31,507 nt of DNA, taken from a virus. A program made the position numbers and the translations under genes. How positions within the stretch are numbered: position 1 is the first letter of the stretch; the number at the start of each line of letters is the position of its first letter. Under the pieces are notes generated by a model that had not been told where the DNA came from, did not search any database, and worked only from the letters and a program-made list of their open reading frames with translations. Shown here piece by piece: positions 6,255-26,180 of this stretch. Location of the stretch: the IMG/VR virus record IMGVR_UViG_3300005514_000004, positions 1 to 31,507 of that record, one strand, 5' to 3'.

Positions 6255-8414
6255 ATGGCTAACAAGAAAATATCTGAACTCGACTCACTCGGTGCCGCAC
6301 CAGCGGCTGATGATGTTTTGCCGATGGTTGACACTGATGCTGTCGTGACCAAGAAGGTTACGGTTGAGAATTTCAGCAAAGGCATTATCAACACGACCTC
6401 CGTTGTTGATTCAAGTGATACGATTGGCAGTAACGATAACGACACCACACTGCCAACCTCTGCCGCTGTTAAGGATTATGTAGACTCCCAAATCCTCACC
6501 AAAGACAATTTGGATGAGATTGCTGAAGGGGCAACGAACCTCCATTTCACGGCCGATGATAATACCAAGCTCGATGCTATTGAAGCCTCTGCCGATGTAA
6601 CAGATGTCACCAACGTAACTGCTGCTGGTGCGTTGATGGACTCTGAGGTTACGAATCTGGCAGATGTAAAAGCATTTGATACTTCGGATTACGCTACCGC
6701 CGCACAAGGCACAACTGCTGACGCTGCTCTAGCTGCCTCTGCTGTCAGCGCATTCGGTGGAACTTTAATAGACGATGCAAATGCTGCTGCTGCCAGAACA
6801 ACTCTGGGGGTGGACGCTTCAGGCACGGACAATTCGACGGGGGTAACATTAGCAGGGACACCCGATTACATAACAATCAGCGGCCAAGAGATTACTCGGG
6901 GGCAGATTGATTTAACTGCCGATGTTACTGGTAATTTGCCTGACGGAAACATTGCCAGTGCGGCGACATGGAATGCATTAAACACAAACGTCCCAATCGC
7001 CACAGACGCGACATGGGCCGCTAAAGGCGACATCGCGGTAGCCACGGCTGACAACACCGCAACGGTACTTACTGTTGGGGATACTGATGACCATGTCCTT
7101 ACGGTAGACTCCACCACGGCAACTGGCCTGAAATGGGCTGCTGTTGCTGGCGGAGGCGGTTCAGGCGACATGACCGGCGTGGATATTACTGCCGGGGATG
7201 GTCTGGACATTTCGCAAAGCAACACGACCAGCGGCGATTACACTGCAACTCTTAGCGCAGACCTAAAGGCCAATGGGGGAATCGTAGTTGAATCGACTGA
7301 ACTAGGAATTGACCTCGCTGCATCCGCGATAACCGGAACACTTGCTGATGGATATATTGCCAGCGCATCTACATGGAACGCGAAGCAGGACGCACTTACT
7401 TTCGGGATTGCCGATGGGTCAGTGGCGAAGTGCAACGATGCTGTCGTGGATGATGACTTTTTACGAATCAGCGGAACTGAAATTGAAGGTAGAAGTGCTT
7501 CAGAAGTCCTGAGCGACATCGGTGCTTCGGCTTCGGGGCATACTCACAGCTATGCCGCCCAAGGAGCCAACTCGGACATCACTTCGCTCACTGGATTGAC
7601 GACAGCATTGACAGTAGCCCAAGGAGGCACAGGGGCTACCTCGTTAACTGACAAGGCTGTTCTGATTTCACAAGACACAGGGACAGACGCAATAGGCGCA
7701 GTTGCGTTAACCTCTAACGGTCAGTTGATTGTGGGCGGAGCAGACGGCCCTGCTGCTGCTACCATTACAGCAGGAACAAATGTTTCAGTTACCAATGCGG
7801 CAAACTCTATAACCATAGCATCCACTGACGAGTTCACTGGCACTGTAACCAGCATAGGGGTAACAGCAAATGAAGGACTGAAGACCAGCACGGGGAGTGC
7901 GCTTACTTCTTCGGGTACTCTCGGAATGGACATCAACAGTCTCTCCAGCATAACTGGCAGTGGAGATGCAAGCGGGTGGAGTGCGGGTGATGAGATTGCT
8001 GTAGTTGATTCGGATGCAACGGATGATCCAACCAAGAAGATCAAGATGCCAGCCGAGATTGGTATAGCTTGCTCGGATGAAACCACCCTGCTTACGGCTG
8101 GGATTAAGGCTAAAATTACTGTCCCAAGAGCCATGACTGTTACCGAGGTGAAACTGTCATTGAATGTGGCGGAGACTACGGGGCTTGCGATTAGCTTGGA
8201 AGATCGAGGAGCAACTCCGGAATCTACTGGAACATCTATGCTGGATGAGGACTTAAATTCGGGAACAGATTATACGGCAGCCGCAACTGCATTTGATTCC
8301 GCTGCAAGCTCTTACTCACTTGAAGAGGATGATTTTGTTTCGGTGGAGATTACGGACATTGGTGATGGGGCAGCAAAAGGGTTAAAGGTTTGGCTATTGG
8401 GTTATTGGACTTAA
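6255..8414 (+). CDS. Tail fibre protein
   Basis: This 719-residue fibre should carry receptor recognition. The N-terminus (MANKKISELDSLGAAPAADD) matches the KISELxxL virion-attachment start seen in many phage fibres. The body is Ala/Thr/Asp/Gly-rich with loosely repeated units (NLADVKAFDTSDYATAA, ASTWNAKQD, TWNALNTNV), as expected for a trimeric beta-stalk. The last about 115 residues (from about 605: IACSDETTLLTAGIKAKITV to LKVWLLGYWT) look like a beta-sandwich tip of a type common on marine phage fibres, and are the likeliest receptor-binding domain. A good ribosome site (AGGGGAAAA) precedes the ATG. No chaperone or autocleavage motif was seen. Confidence 0.8.
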   Translation: MANKKISELDSLGAAPAADDVLPMVDTDAVVTKKVTVENFSKGIINTTSVVDSSDTIGSNDNDTTLPTSAAVKDYVDSQILTKDNLDEIAEGATNLHFTADDNTKLDAIEASADVTDVTNVTAAGALMDSEVTNLADVKAFDTSDYATAAQGTTADAALAASAVSAFGGTLIDDANAAAARTTLGVDASGTDNSTGVTLAGTPDYITISGQEITRGQIDLTADVTGNLPDGNIASAATWNALNTNVPIATDATWAAKGDIAVATADNTATVLTVGDTDDHVLTVDSTTATGLKWAAVAGGGGSGDMTGVDITAGDGLDISQSNTTSGDYTATLSADLKANGGIVVESTELGIDLAASAITGTLADGYIASASTWNAKQDALTFGIADGSVAKCNDAVVDDDFLRISGTEIEGRSASEVLSDIGASASGHTHSYAAQGANSDITSLTGLTTALTVAQGGTGATSLTDKAVLISQDTGTDAIGAVALTSNGQLIVGGADGPAAATITAGTNVSVTNAANSITIASTDEFTGTVTSIGVTANEGLKTSTGSALTSSGTLGMDINSLSSITGSGDASGWSAGDEIAVVDSDATDDPTKKIKMPAEIGIACSDETTLLTAGIKAKITVPRAMTVTEVKLSLNVAETTGLAISLEDRGATPESTGTSMLDEDLNSGTDYTAAATAFDSAASSYSLEEDDFVSVEITDIGDGAAKGLKVWLLGYWT

Positions 8415-11225: not shown

Positions 11226-11364
11226 CTCTGACGTTGTGAGAATCGGTCCGAACGTGAGCGGCAAGGTTTACTTCCGCAAGGGAGGCGAATGGGTTTTGAG
11301 CAAGAACAAGGTGAAGCTACCAGAAGGCTGGTACGCTGGAGCCTTGGGTGACGAAGAAGAATAA
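11134..11364 (+). CDS. Candidate outer-membrane lipoprotein spanin subunit (76 aa)
   Basis: I prefer ATG 11134, which has AAAGGAA just upstream; an in-frame ATG at 11119 would add five residues. The N-terminus MQRLSLRFAIVCGLLFGGGC is a lipoprotein-type signal with the acceptor cysteine at residue 20, though the -3 position is Gly rather than Leu. The mature part is about 56 residues (VVFVKTDSDVVRIGP..., VYFRKGGEW..., KLPEGWYAG). I recall similar VRIGP/EGWY small lipoproteins in lysis regions of other phages. Its 5' end overlaps the 58-residue gene by 92 bases in a different frame. Outer spanin is the most likely role. Confidence 0.6.
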   Translation: MQRLSLRFAIVCGLLFGGGCGTTRVVFVKTDSDVVRIGPNVSGKVYFRKGGEWVLSKNKVKLPEGWYAGALGDEEE

Positions 11365-14207
11365 TGCCGAGAGACGCACAACAACAGGTAGACGGAGACA
11401 GCCAGTTCACAGGGATGAACAGTCGGCTTGATCCTGCACTGCTGCCCCCCGGCATGGCGAGCGAAGCTCGGAACATGCGTTTCCGCAATGGGGTTGCCGC
11501 AACTCGCCGGGGAGTTTACAAGCCAAGCTGGGTAAACAATCTCACGCCTGAAATTGATAACAAGGTTCGTCCGTTTGGCGAGATTCACGGTGTTGGAATA
11601 TTTCGCAATCCTGACACAAACTTGGAGTTTGTAGTAATCGCAGCGGACGGGAAAGCGCACTACACTCGACAGGGTAATAACCCGATTGAGCTGGCATTAC
11701 CAACTGGAGTCACGTTAGTCGGTGAGGTTAATTTTGTTCAGGCATTTAATAAGCTGATCATGTTCCGGGGTGACGACTTTGCTCCACTGGTTTTAGTCAG
11801 CGAAGACACCGGATTCGGTGATCAAGTTGATCAGTGGGACAGCACCACTGCCTATGCTGTGGATGATGAGGTTGCTTTCGGCCCGTTGGTGTCAGTTAGC
11901 GGGATTACATTCAGCAGCGGCACAGCAACCGTAACCACAGGCGCAGCGCACGGTTTCATCACTGGCGCGGATGTTACCATCGCCGGAGCGAACGAGTCTG
12001 AGTTCAATGGCCGCTTTGCCATCACCAAGACCAGCGACACGACATTTACTTTCACGACAACCAGCAGCAACTCAGCCGCTACTGGCACGATCACCGCCAC
12101 TAACAATAAAGAGTATTACCAGTGCGTCACACTTCCTAGCCGGAGTCTGTCTGAGGCTTTATATGCGCCAGCCGCCACTGCGTTAGATGGCGCGTTGTAT
12201 GCGCCAGCAGCCACTGCGTTAGATGGCGGCATAGATGACCAGACAACAACCACCACCGTGACTGTCGATTCGACGGCAGGCTACCCAGACGCAGGAACTA
12301 TATTAGTAGGCACCGAGCAAATTACTTACACAACCAAGACCGGAACTGAGTTTTCGGGCGGCGCACGCGCACAAGGCGGAACAACTATTGCGGTACACGC
12401 AAACGATGCGGCGGTAACTTACGTCCACCCGGCGACTGCTACGATTACAGTAAACAGCACTATCGGCTACCCAGACTCAGGAACCCTATTAGTAGGCACC
12501 GAGCAAATCACTTACACATCCAAGACTGACACGGAGTTTTCAGGCGGCGCACGCGCACAGGGTGGAACGACTATTGCCGCCCATTCAGACAATGCGGAGG
12601 TCACTTACGTTCATCCGGCAACTGTTACGGTTACGGTAAACAAGACTGATGGCTATCCCACAAGCGGCACGATACTTATCGGGTCTGAAAAGCTGACCTA
12701 CACAGGCAAGACATCAACGACCTTCACGACCTGCACGCGAGGCGCAGAATCAACAACAATAGCAGCGCATTTAATAGGAGCCGCCGTATCTTCAACATCA
12801 ACATTAACCAGCGCGGGAGACAGCCCCTCCACAGAGCCAGACCACTGGCAGCAGTTAAGTACGATCATGCCCAACGCAACGCATGGGGTTCATATTGCAA
12901 ACCGAATTGTCGTACCGACAAAGTTTGATGCGAGTAGCACCGCTTATGGTAATAAACAGGATTTTGTTGCGGTCAGCGATTCGCTGGATAATGTCCATAC
13001 CTATTTTGATCAATTGTTCAGAATCAACTTTGGTTCTAACTCTGAGATTCAGGATTTAGTGGTATTCGATGAGCAGAGATTAATTATCTTAAAGGACAAG
13101 GATGTCCACATGGTAACGGGGTTCATTCCGACCGGCACTAATGCTACCCTCTCTTCAAGTTGTTCGGTGCAGCCAGTTGTTCAGGATTATGGTGTATCGA
13201 ATCGGGGGGCTTCGGTTGTTGTGGGAGGTAATGTTTACTTTTATGCCAGCCGAAGGGGCATAGTGAGTCTGGCCCAGACGGAGCAGAGCAAGGTCCGTGG
13301 AGTTGACCTTCCACTCTCCGAATCAATCAGCAAGATTATTGATCGCATTGATGCCCGTAATGAATCAAAGGTAAGATTGGCGTATTGGGACAACAAGCTG
13401 TGGGTAGCCTGCCCTATCGACGGAGGGAATGGTGGCGAAAATAACGCGCTACTCGTTTACGACTTCCTAAACCAGACATGGAGCGGGTACGACAGCGGCA
13501 ACGCGATCAAGCCCAAGGAATTTTTTATAGCGGAATATAATAAAAGCCAACGCCTGTACTTCATCGACACTGATGGGTTCATCAATCTGGTGGAGGAGAA
13601 TTTTGAAGGTGATGATGTTGCTGACCTGACCAAGGAGGATGGCTTGAAGAACGAGGAGATTGAATCCTACATCCTCACGCGAGGCTACGGACAGGAATCC
13701 ATCGATCATAAAACTTATCGCACAGCCTCGATGAACATCAGCGTCTGGAATCCAAAGTATACTGTCAAAGCGAAGTGCGATGGAGTCGAGGAGTCTCAAA
13801 CACTTTGCACTGACCGAACGAAAAGCAGGACCAACTACTATAGACCATTCGACGCATTACCATTTGAGCAGAGCAATCGTGATGACGATATTGCGAACCC
13901 GTATCGCGAGGACTACAGTGTTACGCTTGACGTAGACTTGGATACCCTGCTCACCGAGGCGGGAGACACGATTATCTCAGAAACAGATGAACCGATACTT
14001 CAGGAGGTATCCGTTGAAGGCTTCTCGCTCGGCACAAACGGAGTTCGGCTGGACCGTATGCAGCAGACGATGGAGCCGTTTGCGTTGTCACCGAGGACAG
14101 GTCGTTACACGCAATTCGAAGTAACCAACTCGCAGGGTCGAATTGAATTGACCCAAGCACATTTAACAACTGGACAAGGTGACCGTACTGTCACTGTCAA
14201 ATCATAG
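11364..14207 (+). CDS. Large tail (nozzle/stabilisation-like) protein with tandem domain inserts
   Basis: This 947-residue protein probably forms the lower tail tube or nozzle, as P22 gp10 or T7 gp12 do. The N-terminus (DSQFTGMNSRLDPALLPPGM, then SEARNMRFRNGVAATRRG) is typical of such proteins. After about residue 260 comes an insertion with a duplicated 12-residue unit and three 62-residue beta-rich repeats; the propeller-like body resumes near 500 (HGVHIANRIVVPTKFD) and runs on (VVFDEQRLIILKDKDVHMV, KVRLAYWDNKLWVACP, LLVYDFLNQTWSGYDSG). The C-terminus is beta-rich. It begins in a one-base TAATG overlap with the lipoprotein gene, which links lysis and tail genes in one transcript. Confidence 0.72.
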   Translation: MPRDAQQQVDGDSQFTGMNSRLDPALLPPGMASEARNMRFRNGVAATRRGVYKPSWVNNLTPEIDNKVRPFGEIHGVGIFRNPDTNLEFVVIAADGKAHYTRQGNNPIELALPTGVTLVGEVNFVQAFNKLIMFRGDDFAPLVLVSEDTGFGDQVDQWDSTTAYAVDDEVAFGPLVSVSGITFSSGTATVTTGAAHGFITGADVTIAGANESEFNGRFAITKTSDTTFTFTTTSSNSAATGTITATNNKEYYQCVTLPSRSLSEALYAPAATALDGALYAPAATALDGGIDDQTTTTTVTVDSTAGYPDAGTILVGTEQITYTTKTGTEFSGGARAQGGTTIAVHANDAAVTYVHPATATITVNSTIGYPDSGTLLVGTEQITYTSKTDTEFSGGARAQGGTTIAAHSDNAEVTYVHPATVTVTVNKTDGYPTSGTILIGSEKLTYTGKTSTTFTTCTRGAESTTIAAHLIGAAVSSTSTLTSAGDSPSTEPDHWQQLSTIMPNATHGVHIANRIVVPTKFDASSTAYGNKQDFVAVSDSLDNVHTYFDQLFRINFGSNSEIQDLVVFDEQRLIILKDKDVHMVTGFIPTGTNATLSSSCSVQPVVQDYGVSNRGASVVVGGNVYFYASRRGIVSLAQTEQSKVRGVDLPLSESISKIIDRIDARNESKVRLAYWDNKLWVACPIDGGNGGENNALLVYDFLNQTWSGYDSGNAIKPKEFFIAEYNKSQRLYFIDTDGFINLVEENFEGDDVADLTKEDGLKNEEIESYILTRGYGQESIDHKTYRTASMNISVWNPKYTVKAKCDGVEESQTLCTDRTKSRTNYYRPFDALPFEQSNRDDDIANPYREDYSVTLDVDLDTLLTEAGDTIISETDEPILQEVSVEGFSLGTNGVRLDRMQQTMEPFALSPRTGRYTQFEVTNSQGRIELTQAHLTTGQGDRTVTVKS
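12156..12227 (+). repeat. Tandem 36-bp coding repeat (2 x 12 aa)
   Basis: Two adjacent 36-base units (12156-12191 and 12192-12227) each encode ALYAPAATALDG. They differ at three third-codon positions only, which suggests a recent duplication kept under protein-level selection. They lie just ahead of the larger 186-bp repeats in the tail gene. Confidence 0.85.
12258..12815 (+). repeat. Three tandem 186-bp coding repeats (62-aa domains)
   Basis: Units start at 12258, 12444 and 12630, an exact 186-base period. Each encodes a small beta-rich domain with the pattern V-T-V-x-x-T-x-GYP-x-xGT-(I/L)-L-(V/I)-G-(T/S)-E. Units 1 and 2 are nearly identical in their middle (LVGTEQITYT, EFSGGARAQGGTTIA); unit 3 is more diverged (LIGSEKLTYTGK, CTRGAESTTIA). 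This is domain amplification inside a tail protein. Confidence 0.85.
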
Positions 14208-14767: not shown

Positions 14768-15390
14768 TGGCTACCACCTCCAATTGGGACACAGACACCT
14801 CCACCGGCGGGAAGGGTTTTTCTCGGCTATGGGTGAAGGACGGTAGCACTTGGGATAGGGCTAACGTCATGAACGTGAAAGTGTCCAGTGATTGGAAGTC
14901 TGTCCGAAAAGTTTGGACTAAAGTGTCTGGTGTTTGGAAGCCAGTCATGTGGTGTCCTGAAATCGATGAGGAAATCTATCTAGGGTCAATCACGTTTACT
15001 TCTAAGGATAGCCAGTCTGCGGTTGGGCATGGCTGGATTAAGTATTTAGGTGGTGATGTTCTCGACGCGGACTCTTGGAGCACCAAAGCAACTTCATCCC
15101 AAACCAGTGGAGGATATTCTGACGACACAGGATGGGTGACAGGAATGGCTTGGGCGCAGGCAAATCAGTCAACTGCAAAGTTCAAATTACCGAGTCCAAC
15201 TGAATACGACCTTCCCAGTGCTGGAGTTGGGTGGCGTGAGCCGGAAGGGGCTTGCACTCCGGTTTTCCATGTTCGCGGAAACCACGGTTTGTATGACTTT
15301 TGGATGGGTCGGATTTGCTATGACAATACTAATATTAGCCACGGGAATACATGGCAGACCACAGTCAACCCTTGGGGATATACACTTTGA
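14767..15390 (+). CDS. Tail appendage protein, possible receptor-binding tip (207 aa)
   Basis: I do not recognise a family for the whole. It is Ser/Thr/Trp-rich. Near residues 35-60 are two short related segments (VKVSSDWKSVRKVWTKVSG, then VWKPVMW) like the VxVxxxWKxVxxxxxKVxGxWK segments found in phage tail proteins. The second half (EIYLGSITFTSKD, GWIKYLGGDVL, CTPVFHVRGNHGLYDFWMG) looks like a beta-sandwich. Translation is coupled to the stalk-like gene by TAATG. A receptor-binding or fibre-tip role is inferred from position and composition. Confidence 0.6.
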   Translation: MATTSNWDTDTSTGGKGFSRLWVKDGSTWDRANVMNVKVSSDWKSVRKVWTKVSGVWKPVMWCPEIDEEIYLGSITFTSKDSQSAVGHGWIKYLGGDVLDADSWSTKATSSQTSGGYSDDTGWVTGMAWAQANQSTAKFKLPSPTEYDLPSAGVGWREPEGACTPVFHVRGNHGLYDFWMGRICYDNTNISHGNTWQTTVNPWGYTL

Positions 15391-18875: not shown

Positions 18876-21800
18876 ATGCCCCAAGTAGTCAATCTATCAA
18901 GCCGGGGCATTTCGGTTAACTTCCCCGATGACGCAACGCCTGAAGAAATTCAGGAGGCACTGGATGAGTATTACCCCCGCAATGGTGCTGACGTTGCCCA
19001 CGACATTGCAACTGAGAGAAACTTTCACCTGAAAGGCATGACCCTAGATGACTATGAAATGCTTCGAGGCCACGAGGGTAAGATTGCTGAAGGGAAAGGG
19101 GCTTTGGAAAAAACAATGGAAGCGGCAGGTATGCTTGCCGAGGATATAGGCAGCGGATTGAAGGCAGCTTACCGGGCTGCCAAGAAGGGGCAGTACGGCC
19201 CAACCCTTTCAGGGTCGCTTAATCTAGGGCGTGATATTGCAGTGGGTGGCCTTACTGGCACCTACGATCTTGGTGAAGTTATTCATGGCATTTTTGAGGT
19301 TGAAGATGCAGAGGACACATACAACCGCCACCTTAGTGAAAATGATTTAAAGGATACCCCGGAAGCCCGGAAGGATTACAGGAGCAGGCTTGCAAATGAC
19401 TTCAAGGACTTTAAGAAAAAGATGGATCGTGCCGACTTCAGGCAGGGCATCATTGACCTTGCTGTTGTTCCTGAAGTAGCCCATGCCGCATCTTACGGGC
19501 TTGATGCGTCAGTGCCTGCGACTTTCGGGCTGGGTGCGCTTGCAAAGGCACCCGCGATGGCAGCGACAAAGACTGCTGGCCGTACTGTCGGTCAGGTTGT
19601 TGGGGGTGGATTTAGGCAAGCGGGGAGGGCTGCCACGGTTGTTGGTGAGGTTCCTGAGAGGGTTGCAGGCAAATTACTTGGTGAGGGTGCTGAAGCCGCA
19701 ACTAGGGGTGTTACCACTTTAGGTGGTGGACTTGGCGTTGCCACCGGCACAGTTATCCCTGCGGCTCCTGCGGCAGCAAAGGCGGCAGGGGCTATCCTTG
19801 ACGTTGCTGGAGATGTCCTTGAGTCTGCATCCAGAGCGGCAGCGGAGGGTGGTCGTAAGGGTACTTTTGCCAGAAGCGCAGAACTGGCTGAAACCACTGC
19901 TGGAAAGAACATCTCAGAGCTTCTTGCTCGCGTGGAAACGCCCCTCTCATACGCCGGGGAGGCTATTAAGGGTGCAGGTGCCGGGATGGCCATCGGAGGC
20001 ACGCTAGGCGGCCTTGCAGAGGGCGAAGAGGGCTTCTGGCACGGCATAGGTATAGGAGGCCCGTTAGGCATTGGCGGCAGCCTCGTCGGTCGCGCAGTGG
20101 GTGATGCGTTTGGAGTCAGGCGTGCAGCCCTCTCCTATGAAGACGCTAAGAAATACCTATCAAGTCATCGCGATGCACATTATGCGATCAAGGCTCTGGA
20201 CAAACTTTCCCCGGCTGATGCGGCACACCTAGCCGATTCGGTAATGCACATGGAAAAGTTGGGTGTGAAGGTTACGTTCCACGATGACAACGTGCCGCCG
20301 CCTGCGCTTTCACCTGAGAAGGTTGCGCGTAAATCTTATTCGGGTGTGATGGTGGATGAGTCAGGTGTGTTCATCAATACTGACAGGGTTACAGAATCCA
20401 CAGGACTGCACGAAGCCTTTCATGCGACAGCTTACGCGATGGAGCGAGGAAAGTTTCTTGGTGAAGTGCAGGGGATGCTACTTGGTAAGACTGACCCGGT
20501 GGAGGGTTTGATCGTCAGGCCGGGTGCCTTGTCGATGGAGAATTTTGCAAAGTTTGTTGAGTCCTATGCGGGGATGATGGAAAGTTCAGCAGCCCGTTTG
20601 CGTGTTGCCGGTGATGAGATTGGGGCGGCCAAGCTGGAGGTTCAGTCGATGGAGTTTCGGAGGAAGGTTGCCGAGGGCGACCTACAACATGCGGTGGATG
20701 AGTTTGGTGCATTCTACTGGGATGCATTTGTTCGTGGGGAAGAACCAAAGTTGTTTATTGGCGGCGAGAAAGACCTTGTAGTTAACGCATTAAACTGGGC
20801 GAAGAAAAAGGCTTCAAAGGCTTTTATGCGTGACGCTCAAAAGGCTGGTCTGGACTTCAGTCAAGGAACGCAGGCCGCATTCATTAGAGGCAAGCAGAGA
20901 CAGTTTGCCATCCCAGAGTTTGACGCTGCCATCAGGAGGCTTGTTAAGAATGGCGACATGGAGGTGACGCACAGTGTGCCTGTCACTGGCATACCGAAGG
21001 CACAGGCATTCGCTCTGGCGAAGCTGCATGGTGCTGAACATTTGTTTGAGGTAAGCGATAAGGGTGAGCCTGTAAGGGTGAAGACAATCAAGGAGATTGA
21101 AACTGAATCAAAGGCCGATGTGGAGGCTGCCTTGGATGCAATCGAGGTGCTGCCTGATAATGTGAGGCGGTCAGAGATTGTTGTTGATGAAAAGGGAAGG
21201 CGCAAACTTGTTGCCCGTAACTTATCGAATGAAGAGAAGGCGGTGTTGCTGCGTACAGTACGGCACATGAACAATAGTCAGCGGCAACAGCTTGAGGCTT
21301 TTGTTGCAGGCATGGATTCACCGGACGGCAAGCCGGTCTATAAGGTGAGTTACTGGAAGGCTTCAGGGGCAGGCCGTGGAAAGCGGAAGCCTTACGGTCA
21401 GTTTGAGGTAAGCGAAAGGGACGCACTACCCTACTCTCTGGAGATGAATGCAACCGGAGGGCTTTACCTTCGATTCGTGGACATGGATTCGGTTAATAGT
21501 AACCTGTTAAAGGCACGCAGGCTGAAGGTTTATAAGAACCTGCATTCCAGCCACCGGGAAGCTGTTGCAGAGTTTCATAGTTACCTTGAGAATCTTGACT
21601 CTGACAGTCCGATACCTAGCGCAGAGTTCTTCGGGGGTGGAGAGGTTGGGCGACTCAAGCGCAATTTATTTTATGAGGCACTGGGTACTGTTCCAAGAAA
21701 AGATGATCCACCCCTGCACAACATGGGAAGGGAAGGGTACACGCCAAAGCGTGGGCGAAACTTTGCATTCAAAAACTTCAGGGTAGAACGTCTGGGCAAT

Positions 21801-24800
21801 GTTGAGGACACAGGGGTACGGGTTAAGTTTGGTGAGAGTGCATACGAACGTAGCATAGTCAATATGCTGCCTGACGAATCACCGGCACGCTTCATGCCTG
21901 ATGTGGAGGGTGGAGGGAGAATGGATGCGCCAGAACTTAAAGGCCCAGCTAAGAAGAGGGTAGGAACAACAGGCCAGTACGTTGGCGCACCACGAGGCAT
22001 GTCCACCCCTCAGTCACTGGGTGCGCTTCGTAAGCGAATAGACATGCTTACTGTTGAAGGTCAGCCCGGTAGGTTCTGGTATGAAAATAGTAGTGACGCA
22101 ATTTTAGAGGCTACTGGTGGCAATCTCAAAGAGGCTGAAATAGTTGCCGCCTTGGTGGCTGTCTATTCCCCAGCTAACAGGGTCTACCCTAATTTCTCTC
22201 AGGCAATAAAGGCATACCAGCAGCACATCTCAGGTAAGCCTATCAAGGCAGGACGCTTTGGCCGTATTGATCGGGAAGCTGCCCGTGTCTTGAATGGTGA
22301 AAGGTGGCAGGGTGTAAAGACCAACAACTTCTATGTTAACCTTATGAGGAACGTAGACCCGTCACTTAAACAGGGCGTGACTGTCGATATGTGGATCATG
22401 CGCCTGTTCGGTTACGACACTGACTCACCCTCTACACAACAGTATGCATTTGCTGAAAAGGAAATTAAACGAATAGCCAAGAAGCTGGGATGGGAAGCAC
22501 AGCAGGTTCAGGCGGCAATGTGGGTGAGCGGTAAAGCTAGGTGGGAGTCGGTTTGGGGTGATGTAAAGAAGTCTGCAATAAAGAAGAAGGATTTATTCCA
22601 GAACGAAGAAACTGATAAGTGGGAATGGAAATCCAAGGCTGTTGAAAAGAAGTATCGCAAGAAGGCACGGGTAAAAATGTTTGCGATAAAGAATCAGGAC
22701 GTATCAAAGTCCAAGTTTGATTTTTCTGATGCAGCAAGGCGTGACCTCGGACAGTTAAGTCTGGAGAGTAGGCCCGGTGACAGTGCTGGAATAATACCGG
22801 GCATAGCTCGCGCTTCATACATCGAACAGATTGAATATCATGCTGCAATGGAACGCGCACTGACTGACCACACTGGTCGTGACGTTCTATCTACCGAGCT
22901 AGGCTTGATGGAGATTATGGCTGTAAACGCTCCGGGCGTTTGGCTTGATCAGGTTAACCCCAGCAAGCAGACTTCGTTTATTGCTCCAAAGCAGGGCAAG
23001 GAGGTTCATCCTGCACTCAGGGAGACGCTAAACGAATGGGCTGCATTTCAGGGTCTTCTCAGGAGGCAGGAGGCAGTCGGTTGGCATAGACCGTTTTACA
23101 CTGATTTTGCCGAGGCAAAGGTTGGCGAGGCTAACGGGATGCAGCTTGATTTCGGACGGACGCTGACACCAGAGGAGACTCGCGCCTTAAGCGAGGCAAT
23201 GTTGCAGCTTACGGGCGGGGATACGTTTGCGGCCATAGCTCATAAGGATGGAATTAGGTTCTTGAACTTTGCGGAAGACAATGTAGCTTTCCACAGGCAG
23301 GTGCGTGCAGCGACTGATACTGTCTTTGCGATGCGTCCTGAAGTTGAGGCTACGGGCCGTAGATTTTTTGCAGATAGCGATTTAATAAGTAATAACTGGA
23401 AGGAAAATCCACATGGCGACATTTATAGACAAAGGCTTTTGCGAAGCAGACGATCCGATCTTTACAGAAGGCATTACCGGCTTCTCGCTCCGAAGATCGA
23501 CCAAGTCAACGCAAGTTTCTCAGAAAAGTACGGATGGGGTGAACCCGGAAGACATCTCTCAGACCTCGACCCCGCCAGTACAGCCCCCTCAAAACCAGTA
23601 GACACTTCTACCCGCTTCATGCCTGACGTAGGCGGCCAAGATGCACTGGGTATGTTCAGTGCAGCAGAGCGTGCCACTGTTGATTTGAAGCAGGAGAAGG
23701 GTGGTGCCTCGCAGATGCTTGCCATGATCAAGAAGGCTGGTGTTAAGGATGAGGAGTTGAAGGCACTCGGTCTGGACAAATTCCTTGAGGGCAATCGTAA
23801 GGTGACCAAGGACGAGATTATCGATCACCTCGTGGAGAATCAGATTACTGTTGAGGAGACGGTGTTGGGTGAGGTTCTTCCACCTCTGGAGAGACTCCCT
23901 AGTGAATACGAAACAGGCTCGCGTGAGCGTGTTATCCGCAAGCATGAGTATGCTAAAGAGTTAAAAGCCAAATACGATCAAGTTTTAGACAGGCTAACGA
24001 AAGCGCATGATAAGTTGTCGCCTAACGAGCAAAAGCAAGTTGAGGTGTGGGACAAGAGTTTTAACGATTGGGTGGATTACTGGGGGCAACCTCGTATCCA
24101 GAACGAGCCTAGCGGCAGTCATACAGACGTTATGAAGTGGGCTAATGAGGTTCTGCCGGGGGCGTTTAATGAATCACTGTTCCGCCCTGACGTAGTGAAG
24201 GAATGGATCGTTTTTGAGGGCGGCGATAGGCGAAAAGTCAAAGGTCGTGGACGTTCAAAGAACGAAGCCGAATCTGATGCGCTTCAGAACATTAATGATT
24301 TAAGGAGTCGCCCTGATGCAGCCACCAAACACGACTCCTACGTCGAACCCGGCGCAGTCGAGGGCAGCTACCGGGAGTTGTTGCTGCGGTTGCCGGAGAA
24401 GGCAGCGAAGGCTCGCGTAATCCAAGCCGAAGACGGTCTTTTCTACATCCAGCATTCCCCGCATGAACGGTCAGAGGTCGCTCACGCCTCTCGTCAGTCG
24501 GCAGAAAGTGTTCTGGCAAAGTCACCGCCGAGCATGGAACCGCCGTCAGAAACCTACAAGGGCGGCCACTACGGCGACACCCCGAACACCCTCGCCCATG
24601 TCCGGTTCAACGACCGCACATCTGAGCATGGTAAGACGCTATTCATCGAGGAGATTCAGAGCGATTGGCATCAGGAGGGTCGGAAGAAGGGGTATAAGAC
24701 GGACGTTGATCCTGCTATTTTAAAGAAAATAAACGACCTTAAAAAGGCCGAGGATAAGTTGGACTCTGAGATTCAGGCAAAAAGTGTTGCGGATGATGTG

Positions 24801-26180
24801 CCGCAGCACATTATTGATGCCGGTGAAAGTGCTGATGGTTTGAATAGTCTGGTGGAATTCATAGCGGAATCAAACCGGAATGACCCTCGTTATCAAAAGA
24901 GAGAAGCTATCATGGCTGAAAGGATGTCTTTAGAAAGTCAAGTCGCCCAGCGCGACACCGTCCCAGACGCCCCCTTCAAGACCAGTTGGCACGAGTTGTC
25001 GATGAAGCGCATGATCAGTTACGCTGCCAAGCATGGTTACGATGCTATCAGTTGGACGAAGGGTGAGACACAGTTTCAGCGGTACGGTTCCTCAGAGATT
25101 GCATGGGTGAAGGACGGTGACGGTTGGAAGGTCAAGGCTACTGAGCAACGAGGTGGCGAGGCAGACGGCATTAACATTGAGACTGCTGCCCGTGCAGAAG
25201 GTATACTCAAGGAAGGCGGCGACACGATCACTAGCAAGGAACAGTTACACGCCTTAATCAAGGAGACGGTAATGGATCGTGAGCGAGGGCAATGGTCACC
25301 GGAGAATTTCGAGAAGCAGGTTGATAAGTTAACCAGCCGCACTTGGGAGAGAATGCAAAACGAGGATGCCGGGACATCGCTACCGCGCAAGGAAGGCATG
25401 GGAGGTTTCTACGACCGTATGCTGCCCAAGATGAAGACGTGGAAGAAGCTGGGGCTAAAGGTGGAGACGGATGACCTCGGTAAGCTGACCCCCGAACAGA
25501 GGGAGTTCGCTGAGATTGATAAGCTAGGAAAATACGATAACGCCGATCATCCGCTAACTGATAGGTATTGGGAGTTACATGATTTGCTTGGCCGGGAAGA
25601 GGCGTTGCAAGCAGTTGATCCGAAATCCCTTCCCGCCCACCTCGTCAAGCTCACCCCGGAGGTTAAGGCGAAGGTGCTGGACACCGGCATTGCACGATTC
25701 ATGCCTGATGCCGCAGTACCGGGTGCCGAGCGTAACAGCATAGGCTGGTCGATGCTTATGAGTAAGGCTGGTAACTGGAGGGTGTACAGCCCGGACGGTG
25801 TACTGGCTGGGGTTGCAGGCAGCAAGCAACGTGCTGAACAAATCTTTAAGACCAAGTACAAGCGGGAGTTGCGGAAGAAGGAGAGGAGCAGTAGCGTTAG
25901 GTACATGCCAGATGCAACAGAATACAGGGTTACGTTACCTGATGGAGGAACAAAAACAATTTCATCAAAAAGAACCGTCACTCATGTGGGGCTGATGAAG
26001 CGTGGGGGTGAGTGGGGTGTCCACAGTATGCATTCTCGTCGAGAGTTAGCGGAACGTAGTATAGATTCCGAGACAAAGAGGATTAACGATCATTACCGGC
26101 TGGAAGAGAAGCACGGAAGGTCAACCGCTGGCAATAGGGTTGATGAGACTAGGGTGGTTGAAGTGGAGAAGGTCAAATGA
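18876..26180 (+). CDS. Giant polyvalent virion protein with metallopeptidase-like domain (2434 aa)
   Basis: At 7.3 kb this is almost a quarter of the window and is one intact frame. It was probably built for ejection into the host. The N-terminus (FPDDATPEEIQEALDEYYP, about 15-33) is a short motif common at the start of phage ejection proteins. A Gly/Ala-rich region (about 200-410) has glycine-zipper membrane-insertion character. HEAFH at 512-516 is a zinc-metallopeptidase HExxH signature. About 1043-1226 resembles a helical domain of phage polyvalent proteins that I compare with HhH DNA glycosylases (VYSPANRVYPNF, VDMWIMRLFGYD). About 1594-1661 holds the LKQEKGGASQML domain, and about 1895-2110 the LAHVRFNDR / EEIQSDWHQ / VPDAPFK domain. 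RFMPD-type motifs at 1005, 1580, 2274 and 2342 mark boundaries. Domain activities are inferred. Confidence 0.75.
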   Translation: MPQVVNLSSRGISVNFPDDATPEEIQEALDEYYPRNGADVAHDIATERNFHLKGMTLDDYEMLRGHEGKIAEGKGALEKTMEAAGMLAEDIGSGLKAAYRAAKKGQYGPTLSGSLNLGRDIAVGGLTGTYDLGEVIHGIFEVEDAEDTYNRHLSENDLKDTPEARKDYRSRLANDFKDFKKKMDRADFRQGIIDLAVVPEVAHAASYGLDASVPATFGLGALAKAPAMAATKTAGRTVGQVVGGGFRQAGRAATVVGEVPERVAGKLLGEGAEAATRGVTTLGGGLGVATGTVIPAAPAAAKAAGAILDVAGDVLESASRAAAEGGRKGTFARSAELAETTAGKNISELLARVETPLSYAGEAIKGAGAGMAIGGTLGGLAEGEEGFWHGIGIGGPLGIGGSLVGRAVGDAFGVRRAALSYEDAKKYLSSHRDAHYAIKALDKLSPADAAHLADSVMHMEKLGVKVTFHDDNVPPPALSPEKVARKSYSGVMVDESGVFINTDRVTESTGLHEAFHATAYAMERGKFLGEVQGMLLGKTDPVEGLIVRPGALSMENFAKFVESYAGMMESSAARLRVAGDEIGAAKLEVQSMEFRRKVAEGDLQHAVDEFGAFYWDAFVRGEEPKLFIGGEKDLVVNALNWAKKKASKAFMRDAQKAGLDFSQGTQAAFIRGKQRQFAIPEFDAAIRRLVKNGDMEVTHSVPVTGIPKAQAFALAKLHGAEHLFEVSDKGEPVRVKTIKEIETESKADVEAALDAIEVLPDNVRRSEIVVDEKGRRKLVARNLSNEEKAVLLRTVRHMNNSQRQQLEAFVAGMDSPDGKPVYKVSYWKASGAGRGKRKPYGQFEVSERDALPYSLEMNATGGLYLRFVDMDSVNSNLLKARRLKVYKNLHSSHREAVAEFHSYLENLDSDSPIPSAEFFGGGEVGRLKRNLFYEALGTVPRKDDPPLHNMGREGYTPKRGRNFAFKNFRVERLGNVEDTGVRVKFGESAYERSIVNMLPDESPARFMPDVEGGGRMDAPELKGPAKKRVGTTGQYVGAPRGMSTPQSLGALRKRIDMLTVEGQPGRFWYENSSDAILEATGGNLKEAEIVAALVAVYSPANRVYPNFSQAIKAYQQHISGKPIKAGRFGRIDREAARVLNGERWQGVKTNNFYVNLMRNVDPSLKQGVTVDMWIMRLFGYDTDSPSTQQYAFAEKEIKRIAKKLGWEAQQVQAAMWVSGKARWESVWGDVKKSAIKKKDLFQNEETDKWEWKSKAVEKKYRKKARVKMFAIKNQDVSKSKFDFSDAARRDLGQLSLESRPGDSAGIIPGIARASYIEQIEYHAAMERALTDHTGRDVLSTELGLMEIMAVNAPGVWLDQVNPSKQTSFIAPKQGKEVHPALRETLNEWAAFQGLLRRQEAVGWHRPFYTDFAEAKVGEANGMQLDFGRTLTPEETRALSEAMLQLTGGDTFAAIAHKDGIRFLNFAEDNVAFHRQVRAATDTVFAMRPEVEATGRRFFADSDLISNNWKENPHGDIYRQRLLRSRRSDLYRRHYRLLAPKIDQVNASFSEKYGWGEPGRHLSDLDPASTAPSKPVDTSTRFMPDVGGQDALGMFSAAERATVDLKQEKGGASQMLAMIKKAGVKDEELKALGLDKFLEGNRKVTKDEIIDHLVENQITVEETVLGEVLPPLERLPSEYETGSRERVIRKHEYAKELKAKYDQVLDRLTKAHDKLSPNEQKQVEVWDKSFNDWVDYWGQPRIQNEPSGSHTDVMKWANEVLPGAFNESLFRPDVVKEWIVFEGGDRRKVKGRGRSKNEAESDALQNINDLRSRPDAATKHDSYVEPGAVEGSYRELLLRLPEKAAKARVIQAEDGLFYIQHSPHERSEVAHASRQSAESVLAKSPPSMEPPSETYKGGHYGDTPNTLAHVRFNDRTSEHGKTLFIEEIQSDWHQEGRKKGYKTDVDPAILKKINDLKKAEDKLDSEIQAKSVADDVPQHIIDAGESADGLNSLVEFIAESNRNDPRYQKREAIMAERMSLESQVAQRDTVPDAPFKTSWHELSMKRMISYAAKHGYDAISWTKGETQFQRYGSSEIAWVKDGDGWKVKATEQRGGEADGINIETAARAEGILKEGGDTITSKEQLHALIKETVMDRERGQWSPENFEKQVDKLTSRTWERMQNEDAGTSLPRKEGMGGFYDRMLPKMKTWKKLGLKVETDDLGKLTPEQREFAEIDKLGKYDNADHPLTDRYWELHDLLGREEALQAVDPKSLPAHLVKLTPEVKAKVLDTGIARFMPDAAVPGAERNSIGWSMLMSKAGNWRVYSPDGVLAGVAGSKQRAEQIFKTKYKRELRKKERSSSVRYMPDATEYRVTLPDGGTKTISSKRTVTHVGLMKRGGEWGVHSMHSRRELAERSIDSETKRINDHYRLEEKHGRSTAGNRVDETRVVEVEKVK
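21888..25913 (+). repeat. Four dispersed RFMPD/RYMPD coding motifs
   Basis: The pentapeptide R-(F/Y)-M-P-D is encoded at 21888, 23613, 25695 and 25899 (residues 1005, 1580, 2274 and 2342). All four lie in low-complexity linkers, after short Ser/Thr/Ala/Pro segments and before a new domain. Codons vary (CGC, CGC, CGA, AGG for Arg; TTC or TAC second), so conservation is at the protein level rather than by recent DNA copying. Confidence 0.8.

Follow-up and report, generated by a model that had tools for sequence, protein, structure and literature searches.

The 2434-residue protein encoded on the plus strand at positions 18876-26180 of the window (the whole 31.5-kb virus record analysed here) is likely a phage polyvalent polyprotein, in which four R[FY]MPD motifs would act as recognition sites cut by the zincin-like metallopeptidase (HEAFH) carried in the same chain. 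The motif recurs between the modules of the protein, and the form of such separators co-varies with the type of peptidase across phage proteins; cutting by that peptidase, in cis and at about the time the protein is ejected into the host, would account for both. Comparison of sequences from other phages indicates that separators are probably a general feature of domain ends in phage polyvalent proteins. At least three classes can be recognised: [FY]MP[ADESP], the class of the window; xxQ (e.g., NILNQ, LFFQG), found with [DN]xS[ST]xxHExxH peptidases; and [FY][SA][RK] (e.g., DIRFSR), found mainly with HExxxH peptidases. With somewhat less confidence, we favour the wider reading of phage polyvalent proteins as genuine polyproteins governed by a readable cleavage code, in which clades of zincins would have their own short sites (FMP, xxQ, F[SA]R), co-evolving at every junction, and modules bearing the right separator could be plugged in.

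Gene Context and Modules of the Protein

The window belongs to a tailed phage, with genes for a major head protein, an SU10-type portal, tail proteins and an integrase. The gene of interest is the final large one in the run of head and tail genes, preceded by the genes for portal, major head protein and tail and followed by that for the integrase, as described for polyvalent proteins (Iyer et al. 2017), and by gene order its position matches that of Bbp10 of Bordetella phage BPP-1 (L445). The protein also joins several unrelated domains in one polypeptide, as its DUF7178 module, EIQSDW module and bead domain occur alone or in other orders in other phages. Gene order and a Gly/Ala-rich core hint that it may enter the host together with the genome. 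Two other reading frames of the window (6255-8414 and 11364-14207) match tail-fibre and baseplate families over short stretches (phrog_24456, phrog_708 and others), suggesting mosaic receptor-binding or baseplate proteins.

The first module (aa 1-1004; 18876-21887, plus strand, as are all features below) is a core conserved over its full length in two relatives, L001 and L003, and contains the metallopeptidase. From its composition, a Gly/Ala-rich stretch (aa 270-420; 19683-20135) appears membrane-active, resembling internal ejection proteins. It is followed by the zincin-like metallopeptidase domain (about aa 430-640; 20163-20795), assigned from an invariant HExxH with a downstream Glu and from the predicted order of its elements. 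Sequence and alignment with relatives predict E513, within HEAFH (aa 512-516; 20409-20423), as the general base, and E609 (20700-20702) is a candidate third zinc ligand; H512, E513, H516 and E609 are invariant across the window, L001, L003 and L157. The order of strands, HExxH helix and Glu helix in a low-confidence AlphaFold model is as expected for a zincin. The metallopeptidase domain had no Pfam match, DUF7178 being the only one in the whole protein, and AlphaFold models of two fragments from the window found no match in the PDB.

The core ends at separator 1 (RFMPD, aa 1005-1009; 21888-21902), where L001 has RFMVD and L003 RFQPD at the matching end. Directly ahead of it, in the stretch spanning aa 996-1009 (21861-21902), lies a degenerate copy of the motif, NMLPDESPARFMPD; since L157 reads NNLMPK there, the junction may comprise two sites. 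Module 2 (aa 1010-1579; 21903-23612), with DUF7178 at aa 1063-1218, is for the most part found in a separate protein in L004, and separator 2 (RFMPD, aa 1580-1584; 23613-23627) leads into module 3 (aa 1585-2273; 23628-25694), the GMFSAAE...EIQSDW domain, which shares 61-81% identity with L001 and 56-68% with L003. The end of the EIQSDW domain is marked by separator 3 (RFMPD, aa 2274-2278; 25695-25709), the homologous site elsewhere reading RFQPA, PQFSK, PLFQG or PLFSR. Module 4 (aa 2279-2341; 25710-25898) is a small bead domain, separator 4 (RYMPD, aa 2342-2346; 25899-25913) was assigned as a motif match, and module 5 (aa 2347-2434; 25914-26177) forms the C-terminal domain.

The Repeated Motif

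As reported in the first-pass annotation, copies of R[FY]MPD begin at residues 1005, 1580, 2274 and 2342, in the same protein as HEAFH at 512-516, and all four copies sit between modules. Composition predicts 0.0007 occurrences (Poisson P (≥4) = 9e-15), an unbiased scan for repeated short patterns returned the motif as the top repeat of the protein, and the other reading frames of the window contain none. The four copies had been described as using different codons; three are near-identical and one is recoded (CGCTTCATGCCTGAT, CGCTTCATGCCTGAC, CGATTCATGCCTGAT, AGGTACATGCCAGAT). All four fall in low-confidence AlphaFold stretches and are predicted as coil, except for a three-residue turn at the first copy; with mean pLDDT values of 52 and 44 for the two fragments, these poor models lend the coil placement weak support.

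The proposal that MPD itself defines the site was rejected. Among relatives neither R nor D is fixed, and the invariant core of the separator is [FY]MP followed by A, D, E, S or P.

Module Shuffling at the Junctions

In the IMG/VR comparison, the core of about 1000 aa is common to the window, L001 and L003 and ends at a separator in all three, while the order of modules beyond it differs. The GMFSAAE/EIQSDW module follows RFMPD in the window and L001 and RFMAA in L003, it opens an independent gene in phage record MW202675, and the proteins P0001, P0002 and P0003 share it after unrelated upstream sequence. The bead domain, about 60 aa long, is flanked by separators at two places in L003 and also in L009. 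A search with the whole core for further relatives returned only those already known.

Domain shuffling at the separator junctions is therefore real, as the first-pass annotation had suggested in its alternative reading, and it is compatible with polyprotein cutting. That the separators are nothing but conserved linkers, i.e., recombination joints used for shuffling without any proteolysis, fits the exact exchange of modules at these points and the nearly identical codons of three of the four window copies; however, it leaves unexplained why separators vary in amino-acid form with the peptidase type at the ends of three unrelated domains, in held-out loci and in both strata of phage backbone, as detailed below, and the synonymous recoding together with the R/M/Q variation argues for selection on the peptide. 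We consider shuffling alone an unlikely explanation. The polyprotein reading is much better supported, because at the ends of unrelated domains alike the separator form goes with the kind of metallopeptidase that the protein contains.

Separator Dialects in Other Phages

Sites of the ARF[MQ][PA] type number seven in L003 and four in L009, L101 (HEAFH) has six FMP[DEP] separators, in each case at junctions that are not homologous to those of the window, and L157 has two of [FY]MPP form. A DNA scan for DIRFMP added about a dozen ART-bearing reading frames, most of them with several FMP separators. Other dialects prevail elsewhere: the 4178-aa protein of L010 has five copies of QFSK and one VQFSV, Dolichospermum phage Dfl-JY45 mostly uses F[SA]R forms, and the ART domains from 159 further viral or bacterial loci mostly end in NPDIR[FY]S[RLK] or NPNILxQ forms. 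No dialect is enriched outside its own class: Q is enriched in Q proteins, F[SA][RK] in S proteins and FMP in FMP proteins. For the FMP motif, 36 copies were observed against 0.6 expected in FMP-class reading frames, an excess that is partly ascertainment (about one copy per scanned locus), against 1 versus 2.2 in the Q class and 4 versus 4.3 in the S class. Only a minority of EIQSDW proteins showed clear separators in the unbiased repeat scan, because many have a single junction.

The motif might alternatively be the C-terminal edge of certain domain folds, such as the last strand of the ART or EIQSDW domain, kept for structural reasons. ART and EIQSDW domains do often end in such residues, even in proteins in which no HExxH was found. 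In the window, however, the motif follows four different modules, PQFSK occurs in L010 also inside low-complexity linkers, and separators at homologous domain ends differ according to the peptidase, which together make a purely structural role very unlikely.

Separator Form and Peptidase Type

Peptidases were grouped as class A ([DN]xS[ST]xxHExxH), class B (HExxxH) and others. At the ends of ART domains, the data set on which these classes were set after it had been viewed, Q was found in 22/22 class A proteins, 0/28 of class B and 2/34 of the others (Fisher A vs. B, 1e-14). Because the classes were defined after the fact, three further checks were made, on EIQSDW ends, on a held-out scan and on the HNLTA domain. 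At the ends of the unrelated EIQSDW domain, Q occurred in 10/10 class A proteins, three of them shared with the ART set, versus 3/37 of the rest (P about 5e-8). In the held-out scan, for which the prediction had been recorded first, class A gave 15/19 as scripted, missing the stated 90% threshold, and class B 0/14. The four class A misses were regex artefacts inside another domain rather than ART ends, and without them the result is 15/15 versus 0/14. At the homologous end of the third domain, HNLTA, class A proteins read LFFQ[GSN] and the class B protein of L180 LMFSRG, and on its other side NIL[HKN]Q or NIFNQ is found in class A versus KYSRQ in L180. As expected, Pseudomonas phage F116 (DILFSR) and a crAss-like phage (DIRYSS), both without a class A peptidase, lack Q at their ART ends.

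A repeated domain-boundary site is thus matched to an embedded protease, as in a self-processing polyprotein, with partial clade support for the FMP class. This class comprises fewer proteins, 6/10 of its peptidases fall in one weakly supported group of the peptidase tree, and the HEAFH domain of the window itself lies on a long branch outside that group; support for the class of the window is accordingly weaker than for the Q class. The earlier idea of a polyprotein cut at MPD sites is therefore supported, strongly if indirectly, by the co-variation between separator and peptidase, with [FY]MP in place of MPD as the site.

Phage Lineage as an Alternative Cause

On the peptidase tree, separator labels are strongly clustered, requiring 17 changes against a shuffled mean of 42.1 (reached in 0/200 shuffles). 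Peptidase class on the ART tree is scattered (18 changes vs. a shuffled mean of 20.3), so descent of the adjacent domain does not dictate the dialect; an origin of the separator class in ART lineage was not supported. Both trees are poorly resolved, and the ART tree offered too few supported branches for an independent-pairs comparison to be informative.

We also weighed the possibility that a different protease cuts the motif, be it a host enzyme or a distinct prohead protease, or that the motif serves in docking or packaging, with the co-variation reflecting phage lineage. BPP-1-like tail genes are present in about half of the Q-class phages (19 class A phages carry these families), so that lineage explains part of the association, and separators also occur in proteins without a recognised HExxH, though many of these contigs are partial. 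Phage backbone is thus a partial cause. However, the association holds inside the BPP-1-like group and persists outside it (13/13 vs. 4/82), both peptidase classes are present in betaproteobacterial genomes, and L128 and L180, the only non-A phages with BPP-1-like tail genes, deviate from that backbone as their peptidase does: it is of the HExxxH type, and all their separators are [FY][SA]R. An enzyme or signal of this kind seems improbable to us, and of the two agents first proposed, the protein itself or a host protease, the co-variation points to the protein's own protease.

Proposed Processing

In the polyprotein reading, the HEAFH metallopeptidase would cut its own chain at the four R[FY]MPD junctions, which would free the core (about 1004 aa) and four cargo modules with lengths of roughly 570, 689, 63 and 88 aa; in class A proteins the cut would likely fall after Gln (LFFQ/G). 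Processing at or after ejection would fit the release of separate effectors, and processing during assembly is equally possible. Most proteases disfavour Pro at P1', where a cut directly after M in FMP would place it, and this counts against the polyprotein reading. The cargo part of L003 possibly includes a second peptidase module, as a further HExxH (HELRH) lies at aa 1719 (about 15110-15124).

Relation to Known Systems

The polyproteins of RNA viruses contain an embedded protease whose sites, of 3C or NIa type, are repeated at domain boundaries. The proteins described here likewise combine an embedded protease with repeated boundary sites, and the Q class (LFFQ-G/S) is even similar in look, but the protease fold and genome type are unrelated and the resemblance is convergent at most. 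LFFQG- or LFFQS-like sites at the end of the HNLTA domain in five class A phages (L149, L240, L243, L304, L352) strikingly resemble the Gln-specific sites of RNA-virus proteases, the phage enzyme being a metallopeptidase.

The same analogy was drawn by Iyer et al. (2017; PMC5512222), whose accessible text predicts autoprocessing by embedded zincin domains and cites P1 DdrB as processed. It also notes that such domains are present in the virion RNA polymerase of N4 and in ArdC/TraC1, which are nonetheless packaged or transferred uncut; we count this against the polyprotein reading. The proteins analysed here resemble the polyvalent proteins of that study in being giant and multidomain, in their zincin-like peptidase, ART and LPD domains and in being encoded among late phage genes. 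In contrast, the accessible part of that study mentions neither a separator motif nor a cleavage site and does not pair sites with peptidase types, and neither there nor in the openly accessible literature did we find an earlier description of separators or of their co-variation with peptidase type. Literature searches for RFMPD or NPDIRYS gave nothing relevant, and those for experimental cleavage of polyvalent proteins gave only the 2017 proposal and work on prohead proteases. Self-processing as a proposal thus dates from 2017, while the separator code and its match with the protease appear to be new with respect to the openly accessible literature.

The questions of whether polyvalent phage proteins are processed, at which sites and by which enzyme date from that study. 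Separators readable from sequence and paired with a peptidase would predict exact cut sites and mature pieces, and hence the fragments of thousands of unannotated giant phage proteins; they would further point to candidate metallopeptidases of three distinct sequence specificities, and the matching would account for the tolerance of domain shuffling in such proteins.

According to the accessible part of its description (PMC3650047), the CLCA_X metalloprotease family, one seed of which is Bbp10 of BPP-1, is the sister of the CLCA proteases, which cleave themselves at a conserved site. Class A peptidases are of this kind, Bbp10 being among them. The window peptidase differs, as it reads HEAFHATAY and does not follow the CLCA_X active-site consensus HExxHxxxD, and cut sites in phage proteins are not discussed for CLCA_X in that part. 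Bbp10 itself (L445, 6001-12159) is a class A protein with LPD22 and PBECR1 domains, labelled in RefSeq only as a crystallin beta/gamma motif-containing protein or endolysin. The prohead protease gp245 of giant phage SPN3US (A-X-E; PMC10052503) offers another parallel, in that several virion or ejected proteins are cut after a short motif, but gp245 is a separate enzyme acting in trans on one motif, mainly to remove N-terminal propeptides, and not a zincin parting modules in cis.

Further Observations

The Limnohabitans phage DC33 (L447, PQ492659.1) has a 39-kb genome and a giant polyvalent protein with BPP-1-like relatives, yet is classed in the Inoviridae, a label that looks wrong. A Cupriavidus pampae contig (L203) carries an ADP-ribosyltransferase array, with five, four and three tandem ART domains in three adjacent reading frames, and each of these domains ends in a separator of the DIRF[ARS]R type.
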